Part shown: positions 30,835 through 63,050 of the stretch, piece by piece
Layout of the letters: each line of letters opens with the position of its first letter
How positions within the stretch are numbered: the stretch's first letter is position 1
Notes under the pieces: generated by a model
Databases searched by the model: none
What the model saw: the letters and a program-made list of their open reading frames with translations, nothing else
What the model was told of the DNA's origin: nothing
From: Notolepis coatsorum
Lineage: Eukaryota > Chordata > Actinopteri > Aulopiformes > Paralepididae
Direction: 5' to 3'
Assembly (NCBI GenBank): GCA_963971535.1
Contig: OZ020585.1
Span: 152,274,103 to 152,338,102, forward strand
DNA length: 64,000 nucleotides
Made by a program: the position numbers and the translations under genes

Positions 30835-31282
30835 TAAGGCACTGTAAGGCTACTGTCCTGCCTCACTTCCAGTGATGAAGATAAGCTATGCTAACGGAGC
30901 GTCTATTCCCAAAGCTAAAATGCACGCACAGAGACAAAAAAGGTATGCATCTTCTTGTCTAACTCCAGGGAAGATGTTAAATAAGCTAATTTCCAAAAAA
31001 AGTGGAGTTCCCCTTTAACAAGGGTTAAGGCAAACCACTGTAAACTTTTTTTATTTTTTTATAAATGTAAATTGTGTTAATTTTTTATATAAAAAAAAAC
31101 AACGTATATCGATCGAACCGAACCGAAAACAATTAGCCCAAAACCGTGATACGAACCGAACCGTCGATTTTGTGAACCGTTCCACCCCTAGTACCCACAC
31201 ACAAATCCTGCAATGACAGCATAAACCCTTGCATGTTCCACGTCAGAGAGAGAATAGGGATACACCACCTGTCACACCATAT

Positions 31283-31520
31283 TTGGAAAGTTTGATTGAT
31301 TGTAGCCACGCCCCCTTTTAAACTCTGATTGGTCGAGATGTTTAAGGGGCGGGACTTAGGGGCATGTCATACCTTATAAGGGCATATAGCCAAGTTTGAT
31401 GGATTGTAACCACGCCCCCTTTTTGAGATGATTTATGACCCCCTAGGGCTTCTCTGATTGGTCTATAGGTTCAAGGAGGCGGGACATCCGGTTTAGGAGG
31501 CGGGCCATCCGGTTACGGAA
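31283..31520 (+). promoter_or_regulatory. Subterminal GC-box / inverted-CCAAT repeats of the giant element
   Basis: Two copies of a ~104-bp unit carry CCACGCCCCCTTTT (31306 and 31410). GATTGGTC inverted CCAAT boxes lie at 31327 and 31456, and repeated GGCGGGAC and CATCCGGTTT words follow. The mirror image is in the right arm (about 62740-62990). Clustered GC and CCAAT boxes near a terminus suggest promoter or transposase-binding repeats; neither role is shown directly. Confidence 0.4.
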
Positions 31521-32544
31521 GGGGAGGGGTTGTAAGGGCGGGGACTTCCGTTTTTAGATTTTTTTTTCAAAATAATTTTTTTTTTCAAAATAAAAGTTTT
31601 TCAAAATAAAAGATTCAAAAATAAGTTTTTTTTATTGTCAGAAATAAAAGATTCAAAAAGTCTTTTTTATTTTCAATTTTCAGAATGTGTGTATTCCAAG
31701 GTCTTCACAATATGTATAAATGTATTCCAAGGTTTTCAGAATAAACATTTCACAATATGTATTTGTGTATCTTAAGAAAAATACAATATCTTCAGAATGT
31801 ATTTTGTGTATTTGTGTATCTTCACAATATGTATATGTGTATTCCAAGGTTTTCAGAATAAACATTTCAAATGTGTGTATCTTAAGAATAAGTGTATATC
31901 TTCAGAATAAATGTGTGTGTGTGGTTTAAGTTACAGAATTAAGAATAAAATACATTTTGTGTATTCCAAATGCCAAATGTAAAATACAATGTATTATTCT
32001 TCAGAAATGTTCAATAGCCGTTCTGTCAGTATGCTGTTTGTGAGTGTGTGTAGATTTGTTTGAGTAGAAAGAAAATGTGTGTGTGTGTAGAAAGAATTCT
32101 CCCTCTCAGTAGACTGTCTCCACTCCGTAGGCTGAAATGACGCTCTGGAGGTTCACTGCAGTTCTGAAACTGTCACGATTCTGAAAGTGACACCCCCTTA
32201 GCTGTCATATAGGAGGGGTGTATGGATAGCGAATAGGGAAGCCTAAAACTAGTGTATGCAGCTTCTGTCAAGTCTAATAGATTTATGACCCTCCGACTTC
32301 CCCCTTTCTGCAGAAAAAAACTCGAGGCCCCCAAGGTGTGGCTGTGCGTGTATGTGCATGTTTGTGTCTATTCTTGGATAAAGCCAAATGTAATGTGTCT
32401 ATATTTTTTAGTTTTCATATGGAAGAGTGTGTTTAAGCAAAAGTCTAAATAAAAGAAAATACAAATGTAAGTGAATAATAGGCTGATGTTGTTTGAAAAA
32501 AAAAGTGATAACTTGTAAACAGGGGTTCTAACTAACCACAATAA

Positions 32545-32647
32545 GTATGTATGTATGTATGTATGTATGTATGTATGTATGTATGTATGTATGTATGTAT
32601 GTATGTATGTATGTATGTATGTATGTATGTATGTATCTATGTATGTA
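32545..32647. repeat. (TATG)n microsatellite
   Basis: About 100 bases of GTAT tetranucleotide in the left arm. Its mirror, (CATA)n, is at 61598-61690 in the right arm. Confidence 0.96.
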
Positions 32648-33159
32648 ATATGTAGTGTTTGTGTGTGTGTCTGTGTATGTGTGTGTGTGGAGGATTGTTT
32701 TTTTTTAAAGAAAAATACAGTGTGTCTATAAAATGGTTTCTTGGATAAAGACATAATCTTTAGACATTTGTGTTTAAGCAAAAGAAAATTACAAATGTGT
32801 CTATAAAGTGTAGAATATCATAATCTTTAGACATTTGTGTTTAAGCAAAAGAAAATTACAAATGTGTCTATAAAGTGTAGAATATCACAATCTTTAGACA
32901 CTTGTGTTCGGAAAATATAAGTGTAGATAAAATATATGGGTGTTACAGCATGGTGTAATGCCAACGGGAGGCTAAGTTGGAGGCTAAGTTCTGCAAGATG
33001 GTTGCCTCTCAAGGGTGGGGGGCTGATTACAAACACTGTTGTAAAACCGGTGAAGCGTTAGAAAGGCTGCATTACAGTGTTTTTTGTATTATTCACATTA
33101 ATTATTACACCTATATTACACTATATATGATAGCTTAAAGAGAGTTGTGCTGAAATGTC

Positions 33160-35700
33160 TGTGTGGGTCTGTGTGTGAGGGGTGTGAATAGGCTCCTCTT
33201 AGGTGTTAAAACACCGCATGGGGGCGTGAAGATTAGGCAACATGCAAACTCAGAGTAAAACTGTAGAACATTATAGTCACATTTACAGTCATCATTCAAA
33301 TACAAATGGTTTATATCTTTGTAACATGAAAGTTAGTGTAGAACATTATACTCATAGCATATTTTTTGTTCACACAATGGATGGGTTCACATGAACACAA
33401 TTTAAAACAGGTACTAGAATTAACGGATCAGATCCCAAATCCACTGTAACCTCACGCCTACTCACAAAGGCTATGGTTAATAAAACGTTCTATTATTCTA
33501 ACCTATATGGGCACATGTACAATGGACATTCAATTCCATCCATTTAATTCACACAACATAGATATCTGAGTTAGGGGGCTAGGGGTTAACGTTTATGAAT
33601 GTAGCATAAAATCATTAGAATTGTTATCGTGTAGCAATTAAACACAAAGTAGGTTCATGAGAACATGAAGATTATTTATTAATTTCAGATTATTTGACTT
33701 GTTCCAAGACCAGATGACATTTGAAGGAAATTCAAGATATTATATGAGATGTTTTTAAAAGGGGAAGGAACTAATTTACTAGATTGAGTCAGACCGGGCT
33801 CTGAAGATGTCCAGGGCTATGGTGTCTGTCTGCTGACAGTTTGGGACACGGTGCTTACAGAGAAGTTGTAGTTATTATTTCTTATTTCGTAAAACTAATA
33901 CAATGTTGACTGGAAAATTAGTCTTTGACAAGGTTAAGAGGTAACAGATCAGAGAAAGTCTTTTGTCTTGTTTACATCAGAGTCCCCCATTTTCAATTAA
34001 TCAGGGCCTATATGGCATACTGATAGACAGCAATGCTACATCCAGACATTTAGTACATAGCAGATTACAAATACAGCAGTGTTTGTGATAACCTGTAAGG
34101 GTGTGTCTGTCCAAGCTGTTTTAACTGTTTCAATAGGGTATTTCATATGTCTTAAATTAACAAATTAAGACTTATTTCTGGATATAGATCACTTCAAAGC
34201 CTGAATGTCCATATACTGTTTAGGCCTACATTTTTAGGTCAACTTCCCCTTTTTAGCACGGTTCAAACCGTACCAACACATCTAACCCCCATTTATGTCA
34301 CAGCACCACTGAAAATTAGGACAGAGTTTGGGTAAAAGGCGTTCTATGCTAGCTAGACCTTCTGTGATAGCTATGTCTGTAATGGACTTTCAAAAACGTT
34401 GAAACTGTAGATCATTCACCACCCTATCTGATTTTAAAGTTCCAAATTAAGGGGATTTAAAGAATGAGAAGGGCTAATGTCCCTGCATCATTGTATAACG
34501 TGGTGTTATATTTTATATTTATGACCTGACCATCTCTCCCATACCAACCTCCTGCAGATCAATAACTTCCATCCTCTTTTTTACCCTGAAAAACCCCATT
34601 CAATATAGTTTGCGATACCTCAAATGTAATGTTCAGAAAAATATGTATTTTTAGGTATTTTGTTGTTGCAGTCAATTGGGACCAGGTCTAGCTAAAAAAA
34701 AAAGGGGGGTCAATGATCTCAAATGACTACATGGTAAAAAAGGTTTAGCATCTTTCATGCATGAATTGTAACTATATTGTGGTACACACGAGTAAAACAG
34801 CCATAATATTTGCAAACAGCATTGTTCTAAACAGTGTATTACAAAATCTTTGTATCTAATGTAGACAATATGCAATTATATAATTGTCACCTGAAAACAT
34901 ATTGCAGGATATTTAGCAGAAACTATGGTAAATGTACTTTGGTGCATGTAAAAACATGAGTTTCTTTAATAGTTGGGTCTGTGTGTGTGTGTGTGTGTGG
35001 GGGTGTGAAATGGGTCCCCTTAGGTGTTAAAACGCCCTACATGGGGGTGAGAAGTTTAGCAGTTTAGAGGACATGCCGACTTAGAGCAGAACTATGGAAC
35101 GGTTCACATAACATAATTACCTATCTACTGGATTATGTAATAATAATGCACAAAGTAGATTCAAGAGAACATGCAAACTATTTATTAATTTCAGCTTACA
35201 TGTCTGAAAATTTGACTTGTTCCAAGACCAGATGACATACGAAGGAAACTCAAGATATTGTATGAGGTGTTTTTAAAAGGGGCGAATGAACTATTTTTTT
35301 AGTAGATTGAATCATTAGTCAGAAGGATAATGATATTTTGTCAAGGGGGTGGTATATATCACCCCCATGACACATCCCTACTTTGTAAGACAAACAGCTT
35401 TGATGTTGTAATTACAGTGATTAGGCTCGTTTGCCTGTCTACATTTTTTTATCAATCTGCTTATTGTGTATTTTTAGGTGTTTGTTTATGTTTTATCTGT
35501 CATTTGGACCAGATCTAGCTAAAAGAGGGGTCTATGATCTCAATTGACTACCTGGTAAAGAACTTTTGTGAAAGAATTGGAACTATATTGTGGTACACAC
35601 GAGTAATTCAGCCATAATATTTGCAAACAGCATTGTTCTAAACAATGCAAGGCATACATTGTATCTACTAGACAGTTTGTATTTATATCTTTGTTATATG
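33160..35700. repeat. Directly repeated module within the left arm
   Basis: Two modules share, in order, GTGTGGGTCTGTGTGTG / TTAGGTGTTAAAAC, then CTTGTTCCAAGACCAGATGA (33699 and 35217), then TATTGTGGTACACACGAGTA (34773 and 35587). The second module (34973-35700) is a shortened version of the first (33160-34900). The right arm mirrors both, so the duplication predates or was copied with the arms. Confidence 0.75.
33951..34096 (-). mobile_element. L2-like LINE 3'-end fragment (left arm)
   Basis: Contains AGAGAAAGTCTTTTGTCTTG and CCCCCATTTTCAATTAATCA, matching the LINE 3' UTR at 2790-2960. The mirror copy is at 57425-57571, so it was in the arm before the arms became inverted copies. Confidence 0.75.
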
Positions 35701-35810
35701 AAAAACATGTACTTTGGTAAAAACATGATAACATAATCCTATTGAATTCTGAATTTGTTGTTTATTGGTTGAGTGTCAAGGATACACAAATTATAAACAT
35801 CTAAAACGAT

Positions 35811-36095
35811 AGGTTATGACTATAACCAAGTTCTGTTAGTTAGGGGCGATGCTTGGCATCACTACTGCACTATCTCGCGTACGTGCACGCGTACTGAATA
35901 AACCACAAATGTACCTCTAATACCAGTATTAGTCTGACCACACCCCTCATCAGCTTACCTTCATAAGCAGGTGTGTGGTCACCTGCTCTCCTCCTTCCCA
36001 AGCTTTCACCACAAGGTGAGGACAAGGGCTGCAGCGGCCGTCTGATGCCAAGCATCGCCCCTAACTAACAGAACTTGGTTATAGTCATAACCTAT
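35811..36095. repeat. 285-bp unit with 51-bp inverted ends
   Basis: ATAGGTTATGACTATAACCA at 35811 is the reverse complement of 36076-36095, and the match extends about 51 bases inward to the CTTGGCATCA word. It forms the outer part of the left end of the 5.3-kb unit. Confidence 0.8.
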
Positions 36096-36624
36096 TGTTC
36101 TGTATCGTTAGTGGCTTAGCTTGGCATCACTACTGCACAAGGGAGGCCAAGCGGAGCCACTTGGCTGACAAATACACCCCGCTGACAGCCCCCCAAAACC
36201 ATCAGAACAGGGAGGGCCGAGCCCCCCCGACCCCCCCTAATGGAGGGTATCCCCCCTATTAGAGGCTTCACGGGAAGGCGACGGACCCGACCATGCGAAG
36301 AGGCACTCAAGCAACTTAACGCACAGGGTGAGCAGACCGTGGCCTGACCCCACGACTACACACACGCACAACCCGCATGCCACCCGGGAACGAACGGAGG
36401 AACAACCTCGTTACTGCCCCCAGAATCACGGGGCCAAGGGCAAACCCAACCCCGTGGCAAGGCCGTAGCAGCGGAGCGCGAAGGAAGACCCAGACCCACC
36501 AAAAGGACTGGACTCCCTGGAATGGGGGCCCGGAGAAGTCCATGATGCCAGCATCAAGACCCCACCAGGTGGGCACGTAGTGCCCCGCCCCCCACATTGC
36601 CAGCGTATTCGGACAAAGGCCCCT

Positions 36625-36743
36625 CAGTTACTGCACCTGGTATTCCCAGGCGGAATCCCATCCAAGTACTAACCAGGCCAGAACCTGCTTAGCTTCCGAG
36701 ATCGGACGAGATTGGGCGTGTTCAGGTTGGCATGGCCGTAAGC
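36625..36743 (-). rRNA. 5S rRNA-like sequence 1 (full length, well conserved)
   Basis: Reading the minus strand from 36743 gives GCTTACGGCCATGCCAACCT, then AACACGCCCAATCTCGT, CGGAAGCTAAGCAGG, TGGTTAGTACTTGGATGGGA and GGGAATACCAGGTGCAGTAA. This is a complete 119-base 5S rRNA, including the internal control region (A box AAGCTAAGCAGG, C box TTGGATGGGA). There are a few differences from usual fish 5S, such as GGTTCTGG after GCAGG and GATTCC for GAGACC. No T-run terminator follows (TGAGGGGCC), so a normal 5S transcript is unlikely. It may be a captured 5S gene or a 5S-derived SINE (SINE3-type) head. Confidence 0.88.
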
Positions 36744-37402
36744 CGAGCGGGCCCCGTCCCCCCAATAGTACACCGCCTGGCACACTGACCCTGCAGAACA
36801 GGCAGTCAGCATGGCCGTAAGCACACAAAAAGGTTAACCAACGGAAGCAGGCAGCGCACCGGGGAAAAACCAGGCAACAGGCTATTAACCCTAGCCTGGA
36901 GACTGCGGACGAGACAGGCGCCAGAGGGGACAGCTGAACACAGCCGCCCCGGCGGAAGGAGCGTAAGCTGGCGGTGTTGCATGACCAAGCCTCCATTTAA
37001 AAACCCCCACCCAGAGGGGTCGAGGCAGAGAAGGCTGACACGATTGGCAGACGTCATGAACGTGCAGGGGCACCCTCAAACGGTGAACCCGGGAGTTGAC
37101 ACTGCTCCAACACACCAGGGAATCAACCACCTCGGTGTTACCCAATGCGGTGGTTGTTCCTATAACCCCTCAAGAAAAAACTCCAAAACACACCTGCGGG
37201 CATACACCGGCTATACCGCAGTACAAGTGTTTCAGTTTCCAAAAAGGGTTAACCCAGGCCTACGGGTCGCAAACATCACTTCGGACCGGGCCTGGCGGTA
37301 CGGGAAGCACAGGGTCACCAGAGGAGGTCAAAAAACCACCCCCACAGGCCCCTCTTCGCCATGCGTGAGAGAGGAGCGAAAAATAATGGAGAACCAGCCC
37401 CT

Positions 37403-37521
37403 AAGCACACCGTACCTGGTTTCCCCCGGCGGTCTCCCAACCAAGCACTAACCAGGACCAACCTGTGTAGCGGCCGAGATCCGACGAGATCGAGCGCGTA
37501 CAGAATGGCATGGCTGTAAGC
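37403..37521 (-). rRNA. 5S rRNA-like sequence 2 (diverged)
   Basis: The minus strand from 37521 reads GCTTACAGCCATGCCATTCT, CGATCTCGTCGGATCTCGG, CTGGTTAGTGCTTGGTTGGG, AGACCGCCGGGGGAAACCAG. The full 5S length is aligned, with far more changes than copy 1, including in the A box (CCGCTACACAGG). It has the same orientation as copy 1 and starts 778 bases away. The sequences between and beyond are not obviously tandem copies, so this is not an ordinary 5S array. Probably non-functional. Confidence 0.82.
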
Positions 37522-38040
37522 CATGACGACAGTGCTGAGTAAAAACATACCCAACCAGGGTCTCCATAGCGCTTAACCCTGTGACACCCAGACCGACCCG
37601 GCTTTTTCCCCCCTGAAAAAAAGCCCAAGTCCCTCAGGGTACCAGAACAGCAGATCTGCATCCCCGGCGGACAACGGGTTCAACTGATCTGGACCAGCGT
37701 GACCAGAACCAGTCCCGTGCCCTAACCACGCCGACATGCCTACTCCAGGAGAAGGGCAGATATGCGTGTTGATCTTAACATGAAAAGAAGGCGCCACCCA
37801 GACGTTCGGACGAACCGCGCCTGGTGGCCCACCCCAAGGGCGTGAGACCCCACTACATATGTTCAGATCCATCCCGTCATCATCCCCCAGACATGAACGA
37901 GAATCCGTCGACAACCCACCCAGGTCATGGGATGTGGTCGTCGGAAGAGGAAAAACCCCCATCTCAGTTGCTTTATAAAAACGCTGTTTCAACCACAAGC
38001 AACCAAGGCGTGCCAGTCAATCGCCTGTTTACAGCGAGCT

Positions 38041-40965
38041 AGCACTATACGTGCGTCGGGACACACCCCCATCAATGAACAGGCTATTTAGACCTGTCAT
38101 TGAATCCCCAAGGCGCCCAGGGGAACGACAAGAGGGGTGTGACACTCCCTAACTCCAACACTTCTGGAATAGAAGAAGGAAGCATCAACAGTATGTATCC
38201 CAGTCTACACAGCCGGGGTAAAAAAATTTCACATTTTTACATCCCACCACCCTCCCATAGGAAAGAGACGGGGATCCCCAGAGAGACTTCCCACGCGAGC
38301 TGTACAGATTGAAAAGAATATATTGCACCTTGAGCCATGTAAAAAACTGGTTTTAGGGCCTCCGGGGAAGAGGCACTGAACCCATACACACTCAATAAAC
38401 GAATTGAATCGAATATACATACAATAGAAAAGGACCCTTCTAGAGGGTCCACTCACTTTGACAATCTGAGGAGGAAGGCTCTGTACTCTGATGGAGGCTT
38501 CCTCACATGGAAGAAGGAGTCCGAACTCACAGAAGGCCTGAATAGGCGCTTGGTGAGGAGGAGCCCTGACCACCCCCCCTGAAAACAGATCCATCACATG
38601 GACCTGAACAGCACACGGAAGTCCTACCAACAGAGACGCGCACGGTGACGTACTCTATGGCGGGGGAATTCCTGCGGTGCACACGCCCAATATACCAGGC
38701 CGTGGGACCAGGAACTCCCTCCCCCCCCCCCCCCCCCCCCCCCCGTAACGTGCCGAACCGCCACGTGACGGGAACCTTGAAGGACAGGGGGTGTACCCCT
38801 GACCGACAGAACAATGGGGAGAGGAAAGGTTACCAGTTCACCCCTTTACGACCCCACACCCATGATACGACGTAACGACAAAAAGAGAATATGACACAGT
38901 CATAGTCAGCTCCATGAAGCGTTTCACAGCTCCACACAGTGCATGAGCTAACCTGCCATCTGATTTTTACTAAGGAAAAACACAGAATAGAGAGGGCTCT
39001 AAGAACCCCGGTCCAACATACACATGTGCTTCTGTGGCCAGTACAACCCAGTTGTAGGTCACATGACACACACAACCCATCATCACCTACAAAAAATGGC
39101 AAAAACACTCAACAGAGGAACGCCGTTTTTTTCACAATGAGAGAATACATCATTCTTGATTAGTATCGACCACAGGCCTTGCTAAGCACACATGACAGCA
39201 ACCAAACCAATTTCCCTTTAGGAAATAAGTTTCTCCAGCAGATTTAGCACAACCTCAGCAATCAAGCTAAGAGTTACATCGTATCCCTACCACACAAAAG
39301 ACACAATTAATGCACAACATGTCTGATAGGAGGTGATAAAGTCCCCAGGGAACCGGGGGGGAAAACACAATCCTCCTATTTTACCCTCAATACGGCCAGT
39401 TAAAACAGGAAAACCTGTTAATGTGTGAACACACTGTTCATTGTCATTACAGTCTGAGAAAGAATATTCCTTTACTCACTTGTCACCAAGCATAGCTTCA
39501 TAGGTTAGTTACCTTAGTTGTGAGTACACGCCGTGTTACTCACACAACAACCAGATCATTACATCCCGTTTGCACGGAGAAGCTAACTGCCAGTGACAAA
39601 AACAGCTCACACATAACCCGCAACGTATCCTAAATGCATTGTGCAACACACGTTTTGGGAAAAACACCGTTATTCACAATACATTTAGCAAAGTAAAACC
39701 AGAAGACGTGTTATGAGGTCTGGCCAACCCCGTACCTACCCGGAACGCAGATCAGCGAAGTGCAGTCACAAGACACCGTAGAACACAGCCGTCCTGTGTT
39801 GTTCGATCCGGGCAGCGTCGCCGCTCCAACCAGTCGCTACAGTCCTCTTTGTTGACGCAATCCCCGTCCAGGCTCAGGGCAGGGTCGACGAACATCCCCT
39901 GTCAAGGATGACGTCGTGGTCAAGAGTGTAAAACATGTTAAAATCAAAGCACGTTCAACAGAATAGCATCAAGCTAACGGCTGCTCCAACCGTTCGGGTG
40001 CTATTGCTTCTGCTCGCGAGACGCCAATCTAACGACGCACGCGATCAGAAGCGAGCTCCCGGCGGCGCGCGAGAAGCTAAGCTACCCCGCGCCAGGAGCA
40101 GGCCATGCAGCGATCCAGCAGGCTAACGCAGCAGTTAACAGCTGACCGGCTAACCGTAAGCTATGAACATGTAAACAATGACATAACACTCACCCAGACA
40201 GGCCGCCGTTCTGAACCTCTCCTCACTTTTTAAGAGAAAAGAGAAAACAAGATGTCCACACCGCTTCACAACGGTGACATTACCACATCCGACGGATCAG
40301 CACAGTACCAAGTGGCCTGTGTAGCTGACATTGAACATGAATCTGCCGCTATCGCACATTACATGCACATATCCCCTCGTGAAGGAATACTCTCATTTGG
40401 ATATGAAAGATGGGGCCTTAACACGGTGACAGAGAGAATCCACTCGTCCAGAACACACAGGGATCACCAGTGTCAATGGTCGCGGCCCACTAGTTAAAAC
40501 TATAATGGTCTCCAGACCAAGGCCTTCTGTCGCCTAGGTGGCTGAACAAAGGACCCTAGTCTGGGGCCGGTTTCCATAAACTTTGTCAAGTAGCCCCCAT
40601 AGCACTAACAGACAAGTGGAGCCCGCCAGCAAACACTACTCACCCAACCTGGAACGCACCGCTTCTCACAACAGCGGCATGTCCGACAGTTCAGCTGTGG
40701 CCTGACAGGTTTCACCCCAACAAACACAGCAAGGAACTGCAGTTGAGAAGCATGCAGCGGCGTGCTCCCAATACGAAAACCGGTGGAGGGTTTTTAGAAT
40801 GATCATCATCTTCCAGACACTCCAGTACGAAGACAATATCGCCGTATTTTCTCGAAAATAGTGAGAGAGAAAATAAAGATATGATGTCAACGTATCCTTG
40901 TTTCCCAAAGCTGTTCCTAATCCAATTTCTTCCATCATGGTGTCAAGTGTGGGGATCTACCGAGG
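38041..40965. other. Interior of the 5.3-kb unit, no gene recognised
   Basis: No domain-bearing frame on either strand. A homopolymer C tract lies at 38720-38744. The 81-codon frame at 40252-40497 and others of similar size have no recognisable family. Confidence 0.45.
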
Positions 40966-41160
40966 CACTTCTTCCTTGTGGTGAAAGCGAGAAGGAGGAG
41001 AGCAGGTGACCACACACCTGCTTATGAAGGTAAGCTGATGAGGGGTGTGGTCAGACTAATACTGGTATTAGAGGTACATTTGTGGTTTATTCAGTACGCG
41101 TGCACGTACGCGAGATAGTGCAGTAGTGATGCCAAGCTAAGCCACTAACGATACAGAACC

Positions 41161-41411
41161 ATGAAACTGACCGATACAGTTAAAAACAGACATATCAACC
41201 TAGTTTGTTTTACCTGTTTACACACTGATGAGGTAAAAAAAACAAAGTGTTTCAATACAGATGTATTTTTTAGAAGTTTAGTACGCTCAAGCCCCAAATG
41301 TATTTTCTTTAACCTGTTCTAAGGTATACAAATAGCACATTTATGAAGGACTTTGCAGAACAGCATCTAGTTTTTTTTAGCCCCCCTGAGTTTTATGCTC
41401 TCAATATTTCG
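41161..41411. other. Core of giant element, no gene seen
   Basis: About 250 bases of AT-rich sequence between the 5.3-kb unit and the LINE. Nothing recognised. Confidence 0.4.
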
Positions 41412-41762
41412 ATATGCATTAAATCCTTTTTTTTTTTTTTTTTTTTTTTTTATTATTGCAAAACAAAACTTATTAAAAGTCAGTACTCAACACACAATGT
41501 ATAATGAAACTTTCAGTAAAGGTGGTTAAAATATATGCAAGTACAGAAACAGGATAAAACAAAAATAGTCAATAATAACATTTTAACCGTATACCGTGTA
41601 TATCCAGCGAAGTTACAATTATATAAATGTTAGTATATAATATACCCCTAATACCTATTTTCTAAAACCCTACACACATATGCTCCAGCTCAAATCCCCC
41701 CCTCCCGGACCCCCTCTTGGATAGTACCTCCATTATCCCTCACTCCTAACCAGACATCACCA

Positions 41763-50921: not shown

Positions 50922-50950
<29 letters not shown>
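50850..50950. repeat. (GA)n microsatellite, imperfect
   Basis: GA tract with G-run interruptions, in the same relative place as in the CAGTGGCGG-family hATs. Confidence 0.9.
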
Positions 50951-50952
<2 letters not shown>

Positions 50953-51217: not shown

Positions 51218-51262
51218 TCAATTTCTTTTTTTTTGATTTTTTTTAACGTGCATTCTTTCGCC

Positions 51263-51897
51263 GGTTAAGTTTAGGCATTCTTTCGGGGTTGGTTAAGGTT
51301 AGGGTTAAGTTTAGGCATTGTTTCGGAGTTGGTTAAGGTTAGGGTTAAGTTTAGGCATTCTTTCGGAGTTGGTTAAGGTTAGAGTTTGTTTTAGAGCATG
51401 GCAATATTATTTCGGAGTTGGTTAAGGTTAGGGTTAAGTTTAGGCATTGTTTCGGAGTTGGTTAAGGTTAGGGTTAAGTTTAGGTATTGTTTCGGAGTTG
51501 GTTAAGGTTAGGGTTAAGTTTAGGCATTGTTTCGGAGTTGGTTAAGGTTAGGGTTAAGTTTAGGCATTCTTTCGGAGTTGGTTAAGGTTAGAGTTTGTCT
51601 TAGAGCATGGCAATATTATTTCGGAGTTGGTTAAGGTTAGGGTTACGTTTAGGCATTGTTTCGGAGTTGGTTAAGGTTAGGGTTAAGTTTAGGCATTGTT
51701 TCGGAGTTGGTTAAGGTTAGGGTTAAGTTTAGGCATTGTTTCGGAGTTGGTTAAGGTTAGGGTTAAGTTTAGGCATTGTTTCGGAGTTGGTTAAGGTTAG
51801 GGTTAAGTTTAGGCATTGTTTCGGAGTTGGTTAAGGTTAGGGTTAAGTTTAGGCATTGTTTCGGAGTTGGTTAAGGTTAGAGTTTGTCGCAGAGCAT
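51263..51897. repeat. 40-bp minisatellite with higher-order pattern
   Basis: About 15 copies of a 40-base unit, GGTTAAGGTTAGGGTTAAGT plus TTAGGCATTGTTTCGGAGTT. A variant containing GAGCATGGCAATA interrupts at about 51395, 51605 and 51893, so the array is built from larger blocks of about five or more units. It derives from a sequence present once or twice in the related hATs. Confidence 0.92.
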
Positions 51898-52691
51898 GGC
51901 AATAGAATGCAGCCTATTTCCGCACTGCCGCTCTCTCGCGCTGCCGCGGCCACATGGGCATCGTGGCCAATCAGAGAAACGCTGAACACAAGTTGGTTGC
52001 CTAAAATGTTGACGCGAACGGGAGAGGGAGAGAGTGAAAGAAAGAAAGGAAGAGAGAGGGAGGGAGCACAAGCTCCCCCCCATTCGGGAGCACAAGCTGC
52101 CGCGAGGGAGAGAGTAAAAGAAAGAGAGAGGGAGGGAGGGAGAGAGAGAGGGGGCCTTATCAATAACGGCCTGTCTTTTTCTTTCTTTCTTTCTCTCTTT
52201 CTCTCTCTCTCACTCTCTCTCCCTCTCTCTCTGTCTCTCCCTCCCTCTCTCTCTCCCTCTCTATCTCTCTCTCTCCCTCCAGAGTGCATGCAGAGGTGGG
52301 TTTCACTCTGCCGCAGTATGAGGAGGTGGTTTCCACTCGCTGTGTAGTCAGTCTAGGTAGATTGTGGGCGGGCATTAGCTACAACCACAGAGCCAATCAC
52401 ATCACTGTCCGCTACCCAGAGCCTGAGTGACGTCACTCAGGCCTTCAAATCAGGATGGCCTAATTTACTGGAGCAGGAAATTATCTGAGCTGAATCAGAG
52501 CAATCCGCCAATATGGTATTTAGACACAAAAACACATTGATACTAACTCCTATTACTATAATACAATGCTAGAGACTGAAAAATGACATTTATAATGCAT
52601 GTCACCTTTAAATGAAGAAATGTATCAGCTGAATGAAAGAATATTGTAAATGACAAATGGGTGATAATTCAATTACAGTAATTAAACTAAC

Positions 52692-53026
52692 CTGCTGTGC
52701 AAAGTCAAAACTGTAATGTACAGTTACATCTCTACTGCAGGGTGTGTTAGGGCCAAGCTTAGCAGAGAGATCCTCTACCACCACCTTGCATCTGTCGGTC
52801 ATCCCCCGTAAGATGTCCCGCTCCTTTCCCACCAGGCGTAGGTGTTCCTCCTGCTTCTGAAGTTTGGCAGACTTCACACATTCGGGCAGGTTGGAGCTCC
52901 GATATATGGCCACGTTATGTTTTTGACACTGCCAGCAGAGGTCCGTCATTGGTTTGCCAATTACAATGTATGGCAGAAGTTGGCACCACATCTTCCGGAA
53001 AGTGCTGTTGCCAGCAGCACGATAAC
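52692..53026 (-). CDS. DUF7869-type gene, exon 4
   Basis: Begins after CTGTTCAG (first base 53026) and ends at CAGCAG/GTTAGT (last base 52692). It encodes YRAAGNSTFRKMWCQLLPYI, then TDLCWQCQKHNVAIYRSSNL and DVTVHYSFDFAQQ. The CWQC pair with nearby histidines may bind zinc. The frame is intact and joins in phase to VHYPSDPLQPGPVYF of exon 5. Confidence 0.82.
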
Positions 53027-53559
53027 CTGAACAGTGAACACACAGTGATAAAATAAGACAGGTTCGTAGTAGCAGTAGTCCACTTAAGCAAATCAAGGGC
53101 CTAATTTATAATGAGCCATTAATCATTATTATTGTCAAATAACACTAATTAATCAATCAAATGCAATGAAAGCATTTTGGTCCTTGTCGTCTAGTGTTAG
53201 TCCTTGAATCAAGAGTTCAGTCAGTCGAATAGAGAATAAAAACATCTGCCCATTTCTTTTTTTGGTGGTGGGGCCACCCATTTGTTATAATGTGGATCAT
53301 TGACTGGATCTTTAACAACATAAAAAAAAAAATTATAAACTTTTTATTTATTTATTTTCATTTTGAATCATTTTTATCAACACAAAAAATATACATTCAT
53401 AAAATATTGATAGATGAGTATGTATAATTTATGTGTGTGTTAAATGTAACCTTTCTGGTGTTTCCTTTAATAATAAAAAAAAAATGTGTCACCTGTTTGT
53501 ATGTCTGCAGTCATAATAACAAGTATCTTAAGACAAAGAAAATATTAAGACATACACAC

Positions 53560-53840
53560 CAGTTTCATGCATTGACGCCTTGTACTTCCGCCACACAGAG
53601 GACTTAGTCTCCGTTGTTGGAAGCACACGGATGTCTGCCCTCTTGAAGCCGGGAATACGTCCTGGGAGTGACATGGCACAGTCATCTGCAAAGTTGCTGA
53701 TGAATCTCACGATCCTCCTGATGTCTTCATAATGAAGCACCTTCTTGTTGGCCAAGCGACCCCCACCCCTCTTTATCCTGGGAGCCACACCATATTCCTT
53801 GTAGAATTTGATGGTTGCCGTGAGCTTGTCTTGTGAAATT
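53560..53840 (-). CDS. DUF7869-type gene, exon 3
   Basis: Begins after TGTGTTTCAG (first base 53840) and ends at ACTG/GTGTGT (last base 53560). It encodes ISQDKLTATIKFYKEYGVAP, RIVRFISNFADDCAMSLPGR and SVWRKYKASMHETG. Its frame is intact. Confidence 0.78.
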
Positions 53841-54195
53841 CTGAAACACATAAACACGGACATTAAGCCAAATAAGAACGTGAGAAATAACAATATTTAT
53901 TGTGCAAACACAAAGCAATGAACTGTATAGGATGCAGAGGGGAGTTTGTTATGATCGTTAAGGAAATCTATGAATGACATTGGACTAGTTTTTAACTTTT
54001 GTAAATAGAATATAATGCATTTATTTATCATTGTCACAAGAGTAAGTAATCATTGGTGATTATATTCTAAAACAAAACACTTGTAGCTTTCAGAAAATGT
54101 ATTGTTGGGCAATGTTACAGCATGCTTTTAAAGTTGTGGACCCAGTACCGGGCATTGATTTGTTCCAATGTCTTTAATACAAAAATAATACTTAC

Positions 54196-54360
54196 ACATG
54201 AAGAAACTTGAATGTTGTCTGCATATTTGTTGGCCATCTATGAAATAAGACGTCCTCTGGTGCTTCCTCTCTTTCTGATCTTTCCTTTTGGAACATGCAG
54301 TGTCTTTAGAGAGGTTCATGGTGCTGCTAATCTTTCCTAACAGGAACATGTGTTTTTCAC
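54196..54360 (-). pseudogene. DUF7869-type gene, exon 2
   Basis: Begins after CCCAG at 54360 and ends before GTAAGT (last base 54196). It encodes GEKHMFLLGKISSTMNL and a basic stretch, then SYFIDGQQICR. One base appears lost near 54215-54220, because the frame that joins correctly to exon 3 reads TTFKFLHV up to the donor. Confidence 0.68.
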
Positions 54361-54504
54361 CTGGGACATGACACCAAAATTACCGTTATTCACTGCCATC
54401 AGTTAAAAACATACATGTACATCACACACACAATGTATGCGCAGCATTATCAGTCTACAGTTCTGAAGTTGATCAAGTTCTCTCACTCACTCGCTCTGTT
54501 TCTT

Positions 54505-54505
<1 letters not shown>

Positions 54506-54558
<53 letters not shown>
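54506..54558. repeat. (CA)n microsatellite, intron 1 of the DUF7869-type gene
   Basis: About 53 bases of CA. Confidence 0.95.
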
Positions 54559-54561
<3 letters not shown>

Positions 54562-54702
54562 GCAAATAGAATAATTTGACATCTTTACATGTTATTTCTT
54601 TCACCTAGTAACTATTCAAACCCTGCAGCAACAAGCTGTTATACACCAGAGAGAGAGATAGATAGAGACACACACAGATACAGAGAGAGAGAAAGAGAGA
54701 TA

Positions 54703-54704
<2 letters not shown>

Positions 54705-54748
<44 letters not shown>
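54705..54748. repeat. (CT)n microsatellite, intron 1 of the DUF7869-type gene
   Basis: About 44 bases of CT just downstream of the exon 1 donor on the minus strand; a GA-rich tract (54649-54700) adjoins it. Confidence 0.95.
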
Positions 54749-54749
<1 letters not shown>

Positions 54750-54770
54750 GCGAAGTGGATAAGTTCTTAC

Positions 54771-55252
54771 CAGCAGTCAGCTCTTGAACCTGGTCGCGCA
54801 TTTTCACCATATCTTCAGGAGTAAACCGCGTACAGCAGGCTTGCCCTTTGTTAAGCTTGCAGATACAAGCAAATAAACGAGCCTTTTCGAGATCGCATCC
54901 AACCTCAACACTTGCGTATTCGCCCTGTAGTCTTTGAAGCACTTCAGCTGTTGGGTCTATTAAAAAAAGCGCTTCTCCATCTCGCTCCATCTCGCTCGTC
55001 TCTTCTTCATCACTATCCGAGACAGAGAGCTGCAGGGGTCCCACAGAGTCTGAATCTGAGGTTGTCTCAGTGTCACTGGATGAGTCCGAGTCCGAGTGAT
55101 TTATTAATAGTTTGATCAGGTCCCGGTGCAAAAAAGTAATCACTAATAAGCTGGCGCCATCTATCACCAGACTCTGCAGACAGCACCGCATTGCTGTTTA
55201 ACAGCCGAGCGATTACATCTTCTTCACCCCGGTCCGGATCGCGGGATGCCAT
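54771..55252 (-). pseudogene. DUF7869-type gene, exon 1
   Basis: ATG at 55252 opens MASRDPDRGEEDVIARLLNS, through DRWRQLISDYFF. The family-like acidic stretch (HSDSDSSSDTETTSDSDSVG) and CKLNKGQACCTRFTPEDMVK continue in another frame. The shift lies at or near an A6 run (55130-55135). The exon ends at CTG/GTAAGA (last base 54771). The shift could be a real mutation or a homopolymer error. Confidence 0.7.
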
Positions 55253-55825
55253 TATGAACTAAAATAGAATACAAATCTAAAAAGAAAACAGATGATACAG
55301 ATGTAGAGTGTAGATCCGATCAATACCAGCGTTAACGTGTTGGCTGGGCCAGCATAAGCATAACGTTGACCGTGAGCTCTGACAGAAGTGACAGGTGCGT
55401 CGCCTCCTTCGCGCGACTTGTATAGCAACACTCATTGATTGGACAATCAAGAGACACACAAACAAACAAACAAGCCTATCATTCATAGTTATTCTTGTTG
55501 CCATGCTGTGTCATGTGTCAGAGAAGATTGGCAGGGCGATTGACGAGTCAGTTTTGGGAGGAGACAGTAAACTGACGCTTGAGTAAAACTGCGACCTGAT
55601 TATTATTATTCCCCCCATCTCTCATTGATACACTTCAAAATCATATTTCCCAGTCGAAATGAGAAATAATATATATATATTATGAAAGCCAAGGTGTTGT
55701 TTTATTAGAATAATGTTAAAAAAGAAAGAAAAAAAAGGTGAAAAAAATCCGCGGTTTGACAGAAAAAGGCATTCCTATGTAAATGAGCAATTGCGACATC
55801 CGACTGATTCTGTGAGAGCACGTCA
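55253..55825. other. 5' flank of the DUF7869-type gene, to the right arm
   Basis: About 570 bases with no frame of note. It should contain the promoter of the gene; no clear TATA box is placed ~30 bases upstream. The right inverted arm begins at 55826. Confidence 0.45.
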
Positions 55826-56496
55826 CATATAACAAAGATATAAATACAAACTGTATAGTAGATACAAAGATGTATGCCTTGCATTGTTTAGAACAATGCT
55901 GTTTGCAAATATTATGGCTGAATTACTCGTGTGTACCACAATATAGTTCCAATTATTTCACGAAAGTTGTTTACCAGGTAGTCTGGTCCAAATGACAGAT
56001 AAAACATAAACAAACATCTAAAAATACACAATAAGCAGATTGATAAAAAAAATTTAGACAGGCAAACTAGCCTAATCACTGTAATTACAACATCAAAGCT
56101 GTTTGTCTTACAAAGTAGGGATGTGTCATGGGGGTGATATATGCCACCTCTTGACAAAATATCATTATCCTTCTGACTAATGATTCAATCTACTAAAAAA
56201 ATAGTTCATTCGCCCCTTTTAAAAACACCTCATACAATATCTTGAGTTTCCTTCGTATGTCATCTGGTCTTGGAACAAGTCAAATTTTCAGACATGTAAG
56301 CTGAAATTAATAAATAGTTTGCATGTTCTCTTGAATCTACTTTGTGCATTATTATTACATAATCCAGTAGAGAGGATAATTATGTTATGTGAACCGTTCC
56401 ATAGTTCTGCTCTAAGTCGGCATGTCCTCTAAACTGCTAAACTTCTCACCCCCATGTAGGGCGTTTTAACACCTAAGGGGACCCATTTCACACCCC

Positions 56497-56537
<41 letters not shown>

Positions 56538-57424
56538 CCAACTATTAAAGAAACTCATGTTTTTACATGCATCAAAGTACATTTACCATAGTTTCTGCTA
56601 AATATCCTGCAATATGTTTTCAGGTGACAATTATATAATTGCATATTGTCTACATTAGATACAAAGATTTTGTGATACACTGTTTGGAACAATGCTGTTT
56701 GCAAATATTATGGCTGTTTTACTCGTGTGTACCACAATATAGTTCCAATTCATGCATGAAAGATGCTAAACCTTTTTTACCATGTAGTCATTTGAGATCA
56801 TTGACCCCCTTTTTTTTAAGCTAGACCTGGTCCCAATTGACTGCAACAACAAAAGACCTAAAAATACATACTTTCTGAACATTACATTTGAGGTATCGCA
56901 AACTATATTGAATGGGGTTTTTCAGGTTAAAAAAGAGGATGGAAGTTATTGATCTGCAGGAGGTTGGTATGGGAGAGATGGTCAGGTCATAAATATAAAA
57001 TATAACACCACGTTATACAATGATGCAGGGACATTAGCCCTTCTCATTCTTTAAATCCCCTTAATTTGGAACTTTAAAATCAGATAGGGTGGTGAATGGT
57101 CTACAGTTTCAACGTTTTTGAAAGTCCATTACAGACATAGCTATCACAGAAGGTCTAGCTAGCATAGAACGCCTTTTACCCAAACTCTGTCCTAATTTTC
57201 AGTGGTGCTGTGACATAAATGGGGGTTAGATGTGTTGGTACGGTTTGAACCGTGCTAAAAAGGGGAAGTTGACCTAAAAATGTAGGCCTAAACAGTATAT
57301 GGACATTCAGGCTTTGAAGTGATCTATATCCAGAAATAAGTCTTAATTTATTAATTTAAGACACATGAAATACCCTATTGAAACAGTTAAAACAGCTTGG
57401 ACAGACACACCCTTACAAGTTATC

Positions 57425-57571
57425 ACAAGCACTGCTGTATTTGTAATCTGCTATGTCCTAAATGTCTGGATGTAGCATTGCTGTCTATCAGTATGCCATA
57501 TAGGCCCTGATTAATTGAAAATGGGGGACTCTGATGTAAACAAGACAAAAGACTTTCTCTGATCTATTACC
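57425..57571 (+). mobile_element. L2-like LINE 3'-end fragment (right arm)
   Basis: Mirror of 33951-34096 (CTGATTAATTGAAAATGGGG, GTAAACAAGACAAAAGACTT). Confidence 0.75.
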
Positions 57572-59355
57572 TCTTAACCTTGTCAAAGACTCATTTTCCA
57601 GTCAACATTGTATTCGTTTTACGAAATAAGAAATAATAACTACAACTTCTCTGTAAGCACCGTGTCCCAAACTGTCAGCAGACAGACACCCTAGCCCTGG
57701 ACATCTTCAGAGCCCGGTCTGACTCAATCTAGTAAATTAGTTCCTTCCCCTTTTAAAAACATCTCATATAATATCTTGAATTTCCTTCAAATGTCATCTG
57801 GTCTTGGAACAAGTCAAATAATCTGAAATTAATAAATAATCTGCATGTTCTCATGAACCTACTTTGTGTTTTATTGCTACACGATAACAATTCTAATGAT
57901 TTTATGCTACATTCATAAACGTTAACCCCTAGCCCCCTAACTCAGATATATATGTTGTGTGAATTAAATGGATGGAATTGAATGTCCATTGTGCCCATAT
58001 AGGTTAGAATAATAGAACGTTTTATTAACCATAGCCTTTGTGAGTAGGCGTGAGGTTACAGTGGATTTGGGATCTGATCCGTTAATTCTAGTACCTGTTT
58101 TAAATTGTGTTCATGTGAACCCATCCATTGTGTGAACTAAACATATGCTATGAGTATAATGTTCTACACTAACTTTCATGTTACAAAGATATAAACCATT
58201 TGTATTTGAATGATGACTGTAAATGTGACTATAATGTTCTACAGTTTTACTCTGAGTTTGCATGTCGCCTAATCTTCACGCCCCCATGTGGTGTTTTAAG
58301 AGGAGCCTATTCACACCTCTCACACACAGACCCACACAGACATTTCAGCACAACTCTCTTTAAGCTATCATATATAGTGTAATATAGGTGTAATACTTAA
58401 TGTGAATAATACAAAAAACACTAATGCAGCCTTTTTAAAAGAATCTATTTTTTAAATAAAACCCTTCACCGGTTTTACAACGGTGTTTGTAATCAGCCCC
58501 CCACCCTTGAGAGGCAACCATCTTGCAGAACTTAGCCTCCAAGCATATGACTTAAACACTAGCCCTGTCCCCTGTTGGCATTACACCATGCTGTAACACC
58601 CATATATTTTATCTACACATATATTTTTTCCGAACACAAGTGTCTAAAGATTGTGATCAGGGGCGGGGCTAGGGGGTGGCTACTTGGGCTCAAGCCCCGA
58701 ATGTTTTCTGAAAAGCCCTGAATCTATTTAAAAAAAAAAATAAAAAAATGTTTTTTTTTTTTTTTTGACAATTCATCATTGTTACATGAAAATATGTTTG
58801 CACCAGATTTAGCAGAAGCTAATTTCCATCTGTGGTCTATCCAGCTGCTAACTGTATTTGAGTGAGTTAAGTCTTGGTGTCATGGTAGACTCAGACCCAG
58901 TGGCGGCCGCTGGGTACTTCGCCACTAGGGGCGCTATACCAAATATTTTGCAAACATGTACAGTACAGTACTGTACCACGCAAGACTCATGGCAAGACGT
59001 GAGCGATTCGACTCACGCTCACGGCAATGAATCGGCTCTTATGAACGAGTCGCTCAGCTGTTACTACAACAACACACAACCAGTCAAATAAAGTATAGTC
59101 TAGACTCTAATTCACAACTTGAAACACAATATAAATAGAAAAGTTAGAAACAAAACTCGCCCGTCTCCAAACACAGGCAGATCTCTCCCTCTCTCCTTCT
59201 CTCTCTCACACACAGCGCGACGTGGAATCGATTCGTTACACAATCAGACCTATTATATACCAAGAATAACTTCAGTATGAGTACAGGGCTGTACACATAT
59301 TTTGCATATTGTTAAACGAGCCAAGGCTAGCTATTAAACTATCGATATGAATCGA

Positions 59356-59494
59356 AAATCTGGGACCCTGATGTAAACAAGACAAACGTCTTTCTCTGGT
59401 CTGCATCCCCTTAACAATTGTGTGTATTGAGCCGTACTGTATTGTACCCATTCTGCAATCTGTTAATAAAGTTCTCATTCATTCATTCATTCAA
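59356..59494 (+). mobile_element. L2-like LINE 3'-end fragment
   Basis: GGGACCCTGATGTAAACAAG to TTCTGCAATCTGTTAATAAA, then an ATTC repeat tail identical in type to that of the LINE at 2701. It is nested in the CAGTGGCGG hAT copy 2. Confidence 0.85.
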
Positions 59495-59771
59495 ACATAG
59501 ACGATATTGAACAAGCCATAATCCACGTATTTTCAATCCGAGAGAGCTGCAGTAGTTAAATCAATGAGCCATCGACATAGTCAGTGTGGTAAGTAACGTT
59601 ATTATTGCATCCAAGATTGATACACGGCTGGCTAGGCAGTTGGTAGTCATAGTCTTGTGTTATAAAATAAATAAACAATCAGCAATGTCTCGCTTCATGA
59701 ATGGCCAGCAGTAGCCTGCTGTACTAAACAGTACTGCTCCTAAAAAAAACTATTTACAAACGTTAACGTTA

Positions 59772-59775
<4 letters not shown>

Positions 59776-59834
<59 letters not shown>
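59776..59834. repeat. (GA)n microsatellite
   Basis: About 58 bases of GA with one interruption, equivalent to that at 10250-10309. Confidence 0.93.
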
Positions 59835-59835
<1 letters not shown>

Positions 59836-61595
59836 CTCACTGTTTAGTTGAAACGTCCAGGGCAGGAGAGCTTGATAAACGTGTATAATCCGCCATATAG
59901 CCAAGTGTTAGCTCGTTAGCACAACACTCAACAAGTACATTCCTTTGTCCATTTCCGCTCGAACAGACTGCAAACTACCTGGCGTTCTATCGCCATGCTC
60001 TAAGACAAACTCTAACCTTAACCAACTTTGAAAGAGTGCCTAAGCTTAACAGTCTAAAGAACTTGCAGTCACGGCACGCTCTAAGACAAACAACCTAGAC
60101 CAACCTAGGAGTTACCAACCTAGGAAGCTAGAAGCTAGAATTGGAACATTAGAAATTGGATTCGGCCAATCAGAGATCGTCTCTGTGAAATTCTGCCACG
60201 GAAAAAAATACTGGCGTCGGCCAATCAGAGAGCGTCTCCGCGAAATGCGGCTACAGATATTCTTGACGCTACTGGCTAGACCGCTTCAAATCGCGCCCGG
60301 ATTCCAACATAATAGTCATATTTCAACGCACAACGCGTTATGCACTGATTGGCTGTGACGGATACAGCGATCAAACTGTGACGCGCACTCAGAGCGCTAT
60401 CGCGTATAGCCCGGGCCGAGAAATACGAAAAAAAAAAATAAATAAAAAAAACGTGATGTCACTTCCTGCTCTGGAAAACGAGTGTTTTTTAATTGCGATA
60501 ATAACGTTATATTGTGCATTGGAAATACAAACATACTTAAAATGAGTAAATATTATTCATTTTAAACATGTTTATATTATTTATAGGGCTATAAAACAAA
60601 AAACAAAAAGATACCTTTTCTTGTTCTACTCTCATATAACCAGGCAGGGCCTGAAGGGGGGGCTGCGCCCTAGCGCCCCCCAGTGGCGGCCGCCACTGCT
60701 CAGACCTAAGCTTTAAATCACAATCAACAAGTTGACAAAAACTGAATTCTTCCACCTCAGAAACATAGCTAAAGTACGGCCATTTATAAATCAAAAGGAC
60801 GCTGAAAACCAGATCCATGCCTTTATCTCAAGCCAACTCGACTACTGTAATGCACTCCTTACCGGCCTCCCGAAAAAATACGATGATAACTATTTTATTG
60901 CAATGCACTATTGCATTATTTTATTCTATTTTACTAACTATTTTATTGCACTGCACTATTTTACCTTGTATCAGCGAATCATAGACGCCTGGCCATAAGA
61001 GCATTCGGAGCATCTCTGCTCTCCCACTATTGAACTTGGGGGAGCAAAGGTATGCTCTTGCTCCACCACTTTTTGATCATATGAAAAATATGATATATCC
61101 CCCCCCAATATATAAATCTAACCATAACGGTTAACTGAGTTTTATAGTGAAAAGAGCAGCTTTATTGGTCAAGATTGAAGGCTCTATATTGCAGGAAATT
61201 GCACGTACAGGTTAATTAAATAAAAAAAAAAAACACCCCTTGCCTGCAAAAAAAAAAAAAAAAAAAGGAAAATGAAAAAAATAAAAAAAGGGGGGGGGGG
61301 GGCACCTATCTGGGCTAAGCCCCGGATCTCCTATAATCCTAAATCCGCCCCTGATTGTGATATTCTACACTTTATAGACACATTTGTAATTTTCTTTTGC
61401 TTAAACACAAATGTCTAAAGAGTATGATATTCTACACTTTATAGACACATTTGTAATTGTCTTTTGCTTAAACACAAATGTCTAAAGATTATGTCTTTAT
61501 CCAAGAAACCATTTTATAGACACACTGTATTTTTCTTTAAAAAAAACAATCCTCCACACACACACATACACAGACACACACACAAACACTACATA

Positions 61596-61597
<2 letters not shown>

Positions 61598-61626
<29 letters not shown>

Positions 61627-61690
61627 CATACATACATACATACATACATACATACATACATACATACATACATACATACATACATAGATA
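61598..61690. repeat. (CATA)n microsatellite
   Basis: Mirror of the (TATG)n in the left arm. Confidence 0.96.
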
Positions 61691-63050
61691 CTTATTGTGG
61701 TTAGTTAGAACCCCTGTTTACAAGTAATCACTTTTTTTTCAAACAACATCAGCCTATTATTCACTTACATTTGTATTTTCTTTTATTTAGACTTTTGCTT
61801 AAACACACTCTTACATATGAAAACTAAAAAATATAGACACATTACATTTGGCTTTATCCAAGAATAGACACAAACATGCACGCACAGCCACACCTTGGGG
61901 GCCTCAAGTTTTTTTCTGCAGAAAGGGGGAAGTCGGAGGGTCATAAATCTATTAGACTTGACAGAAGCTGCATATACTAGTTTTAGGCTTCCCTATTCGC
62001 TATCCATACACCCCTCCTATATGACAGCTAAGGGGGTGTCACTTTCAGAATCGTGACAGTTTCAGAACTGCAGTGAACCTCCAGAGCGTCATTTCAGCCT
62101 ACGGAGTGGAGACAGTCTACTGAGAAGGAGAATTCTTTCTACACACACACACACACACACATTTTCTTTCTACTCAAACAAATCTACACACACTCACAAA
62201 CAGCATACTGACAGAACGGCTATTGAACATTTCTGAAGAATAATACATTGTATTTTACATTTGGCATTTGGAATACACAAAATGTATTTTATTCTTAATT
62301 CTGTAACTTAAACCACACACACACACACACACATTTATTCTGAAGATATACACTTATTCTTAAGATACACACATTTGAAATGTTTATTCTGAAAACCTTG
62401 GAATACACATATACATATTGTGAAGATACACAAATACACAAAATACATTCTGAAGATATTGTATTTTTCTCAAGATACACAAATACATATTGTGAAATGT
62501 TTATTCTGAAAACCTTGTAATACACAAATACATATTGTGAAGACCTTGGAATACACACATTCTGAAAATTGAAAATAAAAAAACGTTTTGAATCTTTTAT
62601 TTCTGACAATAAAAAAAAAATATTGAATATTTTATTTTGAAAAATTTTTATGGTGAAAAAAAATTAAAATAAAAAAAAACGTTTATATTGTAAAAAAAAT
62701 CTAAAAACGGAAGTCCCCGCCCTTACAACCCCTCCCCTTCCGTAACCGGATGTCCCGCCTCCTAAACCGGATGTCCCGCCTCCTTGAACCTCTCGACCAA
62801 TCAGAGAAGCCCTAGGGGGTCATAAACCATCTCAAAAAGGGGGCGTGGTTACAATCCATCAAATGTGGCTATATGCCCTTATAAGGTATGGCATACCCAT
62901 AAGTCCCATGGGTATGCCATACCCATAAGTCCCATAAACATCTCGACCAATCAGAGGGCTCCAAAGTTAAAAAGGGGGCGTGGCTACAGTCAATCAAACT
63001 TTCCAAATATGGTGTGACAGGTGGTGTATCCCTATTCTCTCTCTCACGTC

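Follow-up and report, generated by a model that had tools for sequence, protein, structure and literature searches.

The window analysed here is a 64,000-nucleotide stretch of the Notolepis coatsorum genome (contig C6, 152.27–152.34 Mb; 3.42 Gb of genome searched). Self-comparison revealed a palindromic element of 31.8 kb (31245–63044) in it, with inverted arms that both read inward. Self-comparison and alignment of the arms delimited the following features.

31239–31244: left target-site duplication CACGTC, directly outside the left arm
31245–35700, forward strand: left arm, as far as it can be aligned to the right arm, with the terminus AGAGAGAGAATAGGGATACACC
55827–63044, reverse strand: right arm (alignable from 55826)
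63045–63050: right target-site duplication CACGTC, directly outside the right arm
about 58658–61352: 2.7-kb insertion in the right arm, with an 8-bp duplication (ATTGTGAT) and the ends CAGGGGCGG

The two arms (31245–35700 against 63044–55826) were identical at 4289 of 4385 aligned columns (97.8%) and differed by 96 substitutions and several indels. They share the start AGAGAGAGAATAGGGATACACCACC, and the (AG)3//(CT)3 motif, which alongside AGT/AC-type motifs is a 6-bp end motif of Mavericks/Polintons, is present at both ends of the element. The arms are long and internally repetitive and contain no recognised gene. The right arm is longer than the left because of the 2.7-kb insertion, which, with its 8-bp duplication and its ends, we take to be hAT-like.

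When the arm's first 300 bp were searched against the same genome, the best 40 of 1,189 candidates yielded at least 41 matches; because 40 of the 1,189 candidates were scored, these counts are lower bounds. In 30 fetched loci, one degenerate terminus form fits 20 termini at 19 loci, and the flanks differ in most of these (L037, L043 and L047 share theirs). Genome-wide, a degenerate terminus pattern requiring AGAGAGAG had 142 exact matches (74 forward, 68 reverse), versus none for the reversed control. Given these counts and the inverted arms of two further copies, chance is excluded. The subterminal repeat of the palindromic family is AGTTTGATTGATTGTAGCCACGCCCC.

The analyses of pairs and tips rest on 100 listed termini of the 142. 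Among these, 18 neighbouring pairs of ends converge within 60 kb, and none point away from each other. The 16 convergent pairs that were fetched included 13 with an exact 6-bp duplication, two with one mismatch and one with none, whereas mismatched pairings of ends, used as a control, gave no 6-bp duplication in 240. With the window pair (exact) and the pair at C8:67.12 Mb (none), 14 of the 18 pairs have exact duplications and two have one mismatch. At C1:202.04 Mb, where two forward ends lie close together, the outer one was taken for the pair. The 16 fetched elements are 8.1–40.6 kb long. We conclude that the palindrome of 31.8 kb is a genuine mobile element, and that it belongs to a large family in N. 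coatsorum. The arms, AGAGAG termini and exact CACGTC duplication described in an earlier note on this DNA are thus borne out, as is its view of a giant element whose insertion duplicated 6 bp: other copies have AGAGAG ends, different flanks and different 6-bp duplications.

Two loci on contig C8 are unusual. The pair at C8:67118974–67120071, scored from locus L044, consists of two facing ends with an identical 31-mer that lie 1.1 kb from each other and lack a 6-bp duplication, and is perhaps a rearranged remnant. At C8:78639590, 78647699 and 78659231 (L037, L043 and L047), three ends on the same strand lie within 20 kb, identical in terminus and almost so in flank, as if from local duplication.

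The tips of the elements vary across the family and match within each element. The 100 listed ends carry 67 different 31-mers, and all 18 convergent pairs have an identical 31-mer at both ends, compared with 18 of 4,925 unlinked end pairs. Blocks within the 31-mer are weakly associated (association above that of shuffles in 3 of 10 block pairs, p ≤ 0.013). When the first 61 bases of both ends are compared, they agree without gaps at 59–61 positions in 13 of the 16 fetched elements and at 45–54 positions in the other three, in which matching past the first 31 bases is therefore less complete. In an alignment of 20 ends, the mean share of minor alleles was 14–27% in the first three blocks of 16 kept columns and 0–8% in later blocks; these ends are not all independent, and the search pattern fixed some of the early columns.

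Comparison with other copies showed which inner parts of the window element are original. Inverted arms are present in both the copy at C9:117 Mb, which has the right terminus only, and the copy on contig C13, which has both termini with the flanks CTATAT/ATATAT (one mismatch; not among the 18 pairs). At about 5.5 kb, the C13 arms exceed the alignable part of the window arms, and arm homology reaches further inward in other copies than in the window. These two copies and pieces at C7:80.68 Mb, C7:133.59 Mb and C23:4.83 Mb each have some arm or inner-element sequence in common with the window. Aligning internal regions, as the earlier note had suggested, revealed central segments and open reading frames (ORFs) common to several copies, although not every copy piece holds each segment.

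41173–41427: original element sequence, also in the C13 copy and partly in two more
46202–46888: original element core, wholly or partly in five other copies
47831–48978, reverse strand: original core, in which ORF C is truncated by the cut at 48978 (copy comparison)

Three central reading frames, ORFs A, B and C, were recognised across the copies. In the C7:80.68-Mb copy the palindrome takes in part of ORF C, so that about 1.5 kb at the centre, holding ORFs A and B, lies outside it. From stop to stop, ORF A has 216 (C9), 196 (C7), 249 (C23) and 153 (C13) amino acids. Counted from a methionine that C9, C13 and C23 have in common, ORF B has about 200 amino acids in these copies, and in C7 it is shortened to 163; ORF B is still open at about 71% nucleotide identity between copies. 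ORF C has 154 amino acids in C9 and is altered or shorter in other copies. The ratio of nonsynonymous to synonymous substitution rates (dN/dS) was lowest for ORF C, the most constrained of the three (0.16–0.69, in a comparison that leaves out the window sequence), and was 0.60–0.71 for ORF B in three comparisons with the diverged C23 copy. None of the three had a Pfam match above the cut-off, ORF C giving a chance-level viral match (E = 0.047). A search of solved structures returned nothing for ORF B and one chance-level match for ORF C (E = 2.1), and the structure model of ORF B was uninformative (predicted local distance difference test score, pLDDT, 33) and was discarded. No relative was found among about 5.8 billion proteins for ORF B, nor for the 154-amino-acid ORF of the window, which consists partly of truncated ORF C and partly of sequence from the segment described next. 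Ten further ORFs of the copies were scanned against Pfam: six are retrotransposon reverse transcriptases or endonucleases, one had a sub-threshold OSK match, and three had no family (one of them ORF B of C23).

Between the arms of the window element lies a gene of the Pfam family PF25273 (DUF7869), in a segment with the following features; exon positions are from the gene model.

48979–55826, reverse strand: nested DUF7869 transposon (copy comparison); its 5' end at 55826 (GTGACGTGCTCTCAC...) is preceded by ATAT (55830–55827)
54771–55252, reverse strand: exon 1, with one frameshift; the N-terminus agrees with protein P0001
54198–54360, reverse strand: exon 2
53560–53840, reverse strand: exon 3
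52692–53026, reverse strand: exon 4, with the first putative DDD residue at its end
49785–50603, reverse strand: exon 5, also found by profile match (PF25273, E = 1.2e-19), with two of the three putative DDD residues
35690–35706, forward strand: empty target site TTTGTTATATGAAAAAC in the left arm, matching the DUF7869 insertion point of the right arm (arm comparison)

The best match of the gene was in the fish Pagothenia (69% identical over 89% of the query). Within the best 68 of 2,571 candidates, 47 places in the genome, the window included, match P0001 at 74–76% from residues 394–396 to 642, 46 of them without a stop, and more distant matches follow. None of the 46 close copies other than that of the window lies inside the 17 other paired elements. 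Searching the C9 and C13 copies, each read over 30 kb, with the DUF7869 protein (tblastn) gave no match. DUF7869 copies stand alone with GTGAC...GTCAC ends and have terminal inverted repeats (TIRs) of their own, 5' GTGACGTGCTCTCAC and 3' complement GTGACTTGCTCT. The 5' start is preceded by ATAT in four of six fetched copies and in the window (the pieces L073 and L077 do not show the 5' end). At the 3' side, four of five fetched copies have the common end ...AGAGCAAGTCAC, after which come ATAT and sequence that differs between copies; the fifth piece (L067) breaks off earlier. In each of the three copies for which both ends were read, ATAT stands on either side.

In the right arm, the insertion point reads TTTGTTATAT followed by GTGAC. 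The left arm keeps the empty site TTTGTTATATGAAAAAC; the boundary at 35700/55826, where the arms end inward, is thus the DUF7869 insertion point and no original feature of the element. It follows that most of the core of about 7 kb, which the earlier note had obtained by subtracting later insertions, is itself a later insertion. The empty site TTATATG in the left arm favours ATAT as a duplicated target over TIRs that include it, the two being not fully distinguishable. By these sequence comparisons, the DUF7869 segment is an independent transposon that later jumped into the giant element. The proposal that its gene belongs to the giant class was therefore rejected, given the standalone copies, their absence from other paired elements and the empty site. 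The window copy lacks roughly 290 bp at its 3' end relative to four other copies, and it ends at 48979, where the core with truncated ORF C begins, which points to a later deletion.

The DUF7869 product is predicted to have an RNase H-like (DDE) fold. Across 39 DUF7869 proteins, six bacterial ones included, D393 is conserved in 38 and D472 and D514 in all; D437 and E438 are likewise present in all 39, so the choice of active-site residues among the conserved acidic ones was made from strand order. Foldseek matches included, besides DDE enzymes, NurA, Argonaute and MutS. In a viral structure library, nothing matched the model at E 0.001 or better, the first entry being a giant-virus DDE transposase (E = 0.016). 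The 3' parts of five DUF7869 copies differ by 0.5–1.7% in nine of ten pairs and by 5.1% in one. With its predicted fold and DDD residues, the PF25273 protein would seem to be the transposase of an ATAT-flanked transposon with recent activity. We found no paper on DUF7869 and no occurrence of it in IMG/VR.

The stretch separating the exon 5 match and the 5' end spans 5,217 bases in the window copy of this transposon, about 2.1 kb more than in four other copies (3,051–3,155). A 40-bp tandem array of about 15 copies (51263–51884) lies in intron 4 of its gene.

DUF7869 proteins are also encoded in bacterial units resembling insertion sequences (IS), 2.1–2.7 kb long (L001, L002, L003, L006, L007 and L009), in Desulfobacterales, Legionellales, Thiomargarita and others. 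The DUF7869 proteins tried against Pfam and NCBIfam matched no named transposase family above the cut-off; one bacterial protein had a sub-threshold ISAzo13 match (E = 0.018). We found no name for the transposon group, its bacterial relatives being unnamed by NCBIfam where tried, and no bacterial relatives in plasmids. A search for an empty site of the L002 unit returned, beyond its own place, only a 52-base match inside the query. A firm 4-bp duplication for the bacterial units was rejected for lack of proof, since by eye it is exact in two of six (L001, AAAT; L006, AATT).

Three further later insertions were recognised in the window copy.

35809–41159: nested inverted-repeat element of about 5.3 kb, its repeats with a perfect core of 147 bp and 95% identity over 188 bp
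42301–45531, reverse strand: ORF of 1,076 amino acids of a nested long interspersed nuclear element (LINE) retrotransposon, with endonuclease and reverse transcriptase (Pfam scan)
46886–47832: nested insertion resembling a miniature inverted-repeat transposable element (MITE), with 18-bp inverted ends TAACTCTTTCAGTGCCAC, absent here from five other compared copies

The 5.3-kb element is absent from the corresponding place in the C13 copy, and its scanned ORFs had no family above the cut-off. Its interior is GC-rich (58% at 36–38 kb), and a 53-bp inverted pair lies at its left end (35809–36095). Near the start of the window, outside the palindrome, is a 441-bp tandem repeat (626–2034; 3.2 copies at 99% identity).

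We consider the window element to be a non-autonomous, palindromic element of Maverick type, a reading to which we give a probability of about 60%. The palindromic family as a whole is Maverick-ended, probably non-autonomous and no proven Maverick, because its ends and duplication agree with those of Mavericks, its arms exceed their TIR length and the scanned ORFs hold no core gene. The alternative in the earlier note of a gutted relative of a known giant element fits this appearance, by way of the Maverick-type ends. In such elements, an integrase would join the AGAGAG...CTCTCT ends to a 6-bp staggered cut, in the manner of Mavericks/Polintons, and the elements would replicate as linear DNA. 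The matched tips may mean that, at every cycle, the two ends are copied anew from one another, for instance through panhandle pairing in the course of protein-primed synthesis; this would leave tips identical within an element and different between elements. The elements would probably be moved by a polymerase and an integrase from elsewhere, with ORFs A, B and C as their own at the centre. The window copy would later have been hit by the hAT-like element, the 5.3-kb inverted-repeat element, the LINE, the MITE and the DUF7869 transposon, and a subsequent deletion may have taken the end of that transposon along with ORFs A and B and a portion of ORF C. More tentatively, the family could be a giant palindromic class in which each tip carries a combinatorial, hypervariable code of some 45 bp. 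Most rounds of mobilisation would rewrite this code and transfer it to both ends, and it may set which ends synapse or replicate together; such a class would carry ORFs A, B and C without recognised relatives and use or mimic Maverick machinery.

Several observations weigh against the Maverick-type reading. Pfam scans of 11 of the window element's 17 ORFs of at least 120 amino acids, and of 13 ORFs from five further copies, brought up none of the Maverick genes for polymerase, integrase, capsid, ATPase or protease. The arms of 4.5–5.5 kb or more are far longer than the TIRs of intact vertebrate Mavericks, given as 46–1,447 bp in PMC8097293. Two of the 18 convergent pairs are without a 6-bp duplication, dN/dS is 0.83–1.74 for close pairs of ORF B, and ORF A is little constrained (0.63–1.20). 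A separate class of giant transposon, unrelated to Mavericks and moved by its central ORFs A, B and C, would account for scanned ORFs without a Maverick gene, for an ORF B that stays open at such divergence and a constrained ORF C, and for the lack of relatives of ORF B, of the window ORF with truncated C and, above the Pfam cut-off, of all three. We nevertheless think it rather unlikely, as the ORFs have no known enzyme fold, the ORF B model being useless, and both the end motif and the duplication length equal those of vertebrate Mavericks, for which the same paper reports conserved end motifs including 5'-(AG)3//(CT)3-3' and 6-bp duplications (PMC8097293).

Less probable again is a foldback-type element moved by a cut-and-paste transposase in trans, with its ends matched through gene conversion between chromosomal arms. 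Long, internally repetitive arms with no recognised gene and element lengths from 8 to 41 kb are what such an element might show; however, apart from that of the nested DUF7869 transposon, no transposase was recognised in the scanned copy ORFs, and matched tips in every listed pair require homogenisation as fast as movement. A giant transposon with the DUF7869 protein as its own transposase, built on the earlier note's class that carries a DUF7869-type gene, drew on a gene between the arms whose product has a predicted DDE-type fold, but it is refuted in this genome by the independent GTGAC...GTCAC copies with ATAT flanks, the target site that the left arm keeps intact, the lack of a match in the C9 and C13 copies and the 46 close copies that all lie outside the other paired elements. 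That the palindrome is an artefact is equally implausible: long palindromes are sometimes assembly errors, but these arms differ at 96 of 4,385 columns, one of them alone holds an insertion, the 6-bp duplication is exact and many independent copies have different flanks.

If the Maverick-type reading is correct, Maverick-type ends can drive the amplification of almost fully palindromic elements in which no Maverick gene can be recognised, and many of these elements persist as copies that are paired and can be dated. Tips that agree within elements, and rarely between them, would offer a test of how end identity is kept up that needs nothing beyond sequence, and would be the footprint expected of protein-primed replication. 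PF25273, a family of 'unknown function', would gain a testable one, as the transposase of a fish transposon with bacterial IS-like relatives. A literature search on giant, long-TIR, non-autonomous or protein-primed elements found no description of the palindromic family.

In comparison with known systems, the DUF7869 protein shares its predicted RNase H-like fold with DDE/DDD transposases and retroviral integrases; it differs from them in its association with ATAT flanks and in conserved Cys residues N-terminal to the catalytic part. Galileo, a foldback-like element of the P superfamily, resembles the palindromic family in its very long, internally repetitive inverted arms, whereas the family has a 6-bp duplication and AGAGAG ends, and no P-type transposase was recognised in it. 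Dada DNA transposons, compared by description only, likewise occur in fish and make 6–7-bp duplications; according to PMC3706591 and PMC8869645, many Dada families differ in inserting in small RNA genes, and their transposase, which is characterised by DDE and a DxxH motif, is large and multi-exon with zinc fingers (1402 amino acids for Dada-U6_DR). From Mavericks/Polintons the palindromic family differs, besides arm length, in its near-complete palindrome, its ORFs A, B and C, its variable matched tips and the lack of a core gene among the scanned ORFs. It shares with them the (AG)3//(CT)3 ends, the 6-bp duplication and the inverted ends, and the size ranges overlap, at 8–41 kb here and 12.7–24.6 kb (12,723–24,620 bp) for intact vertebrate Mavericks (PMC8097293).

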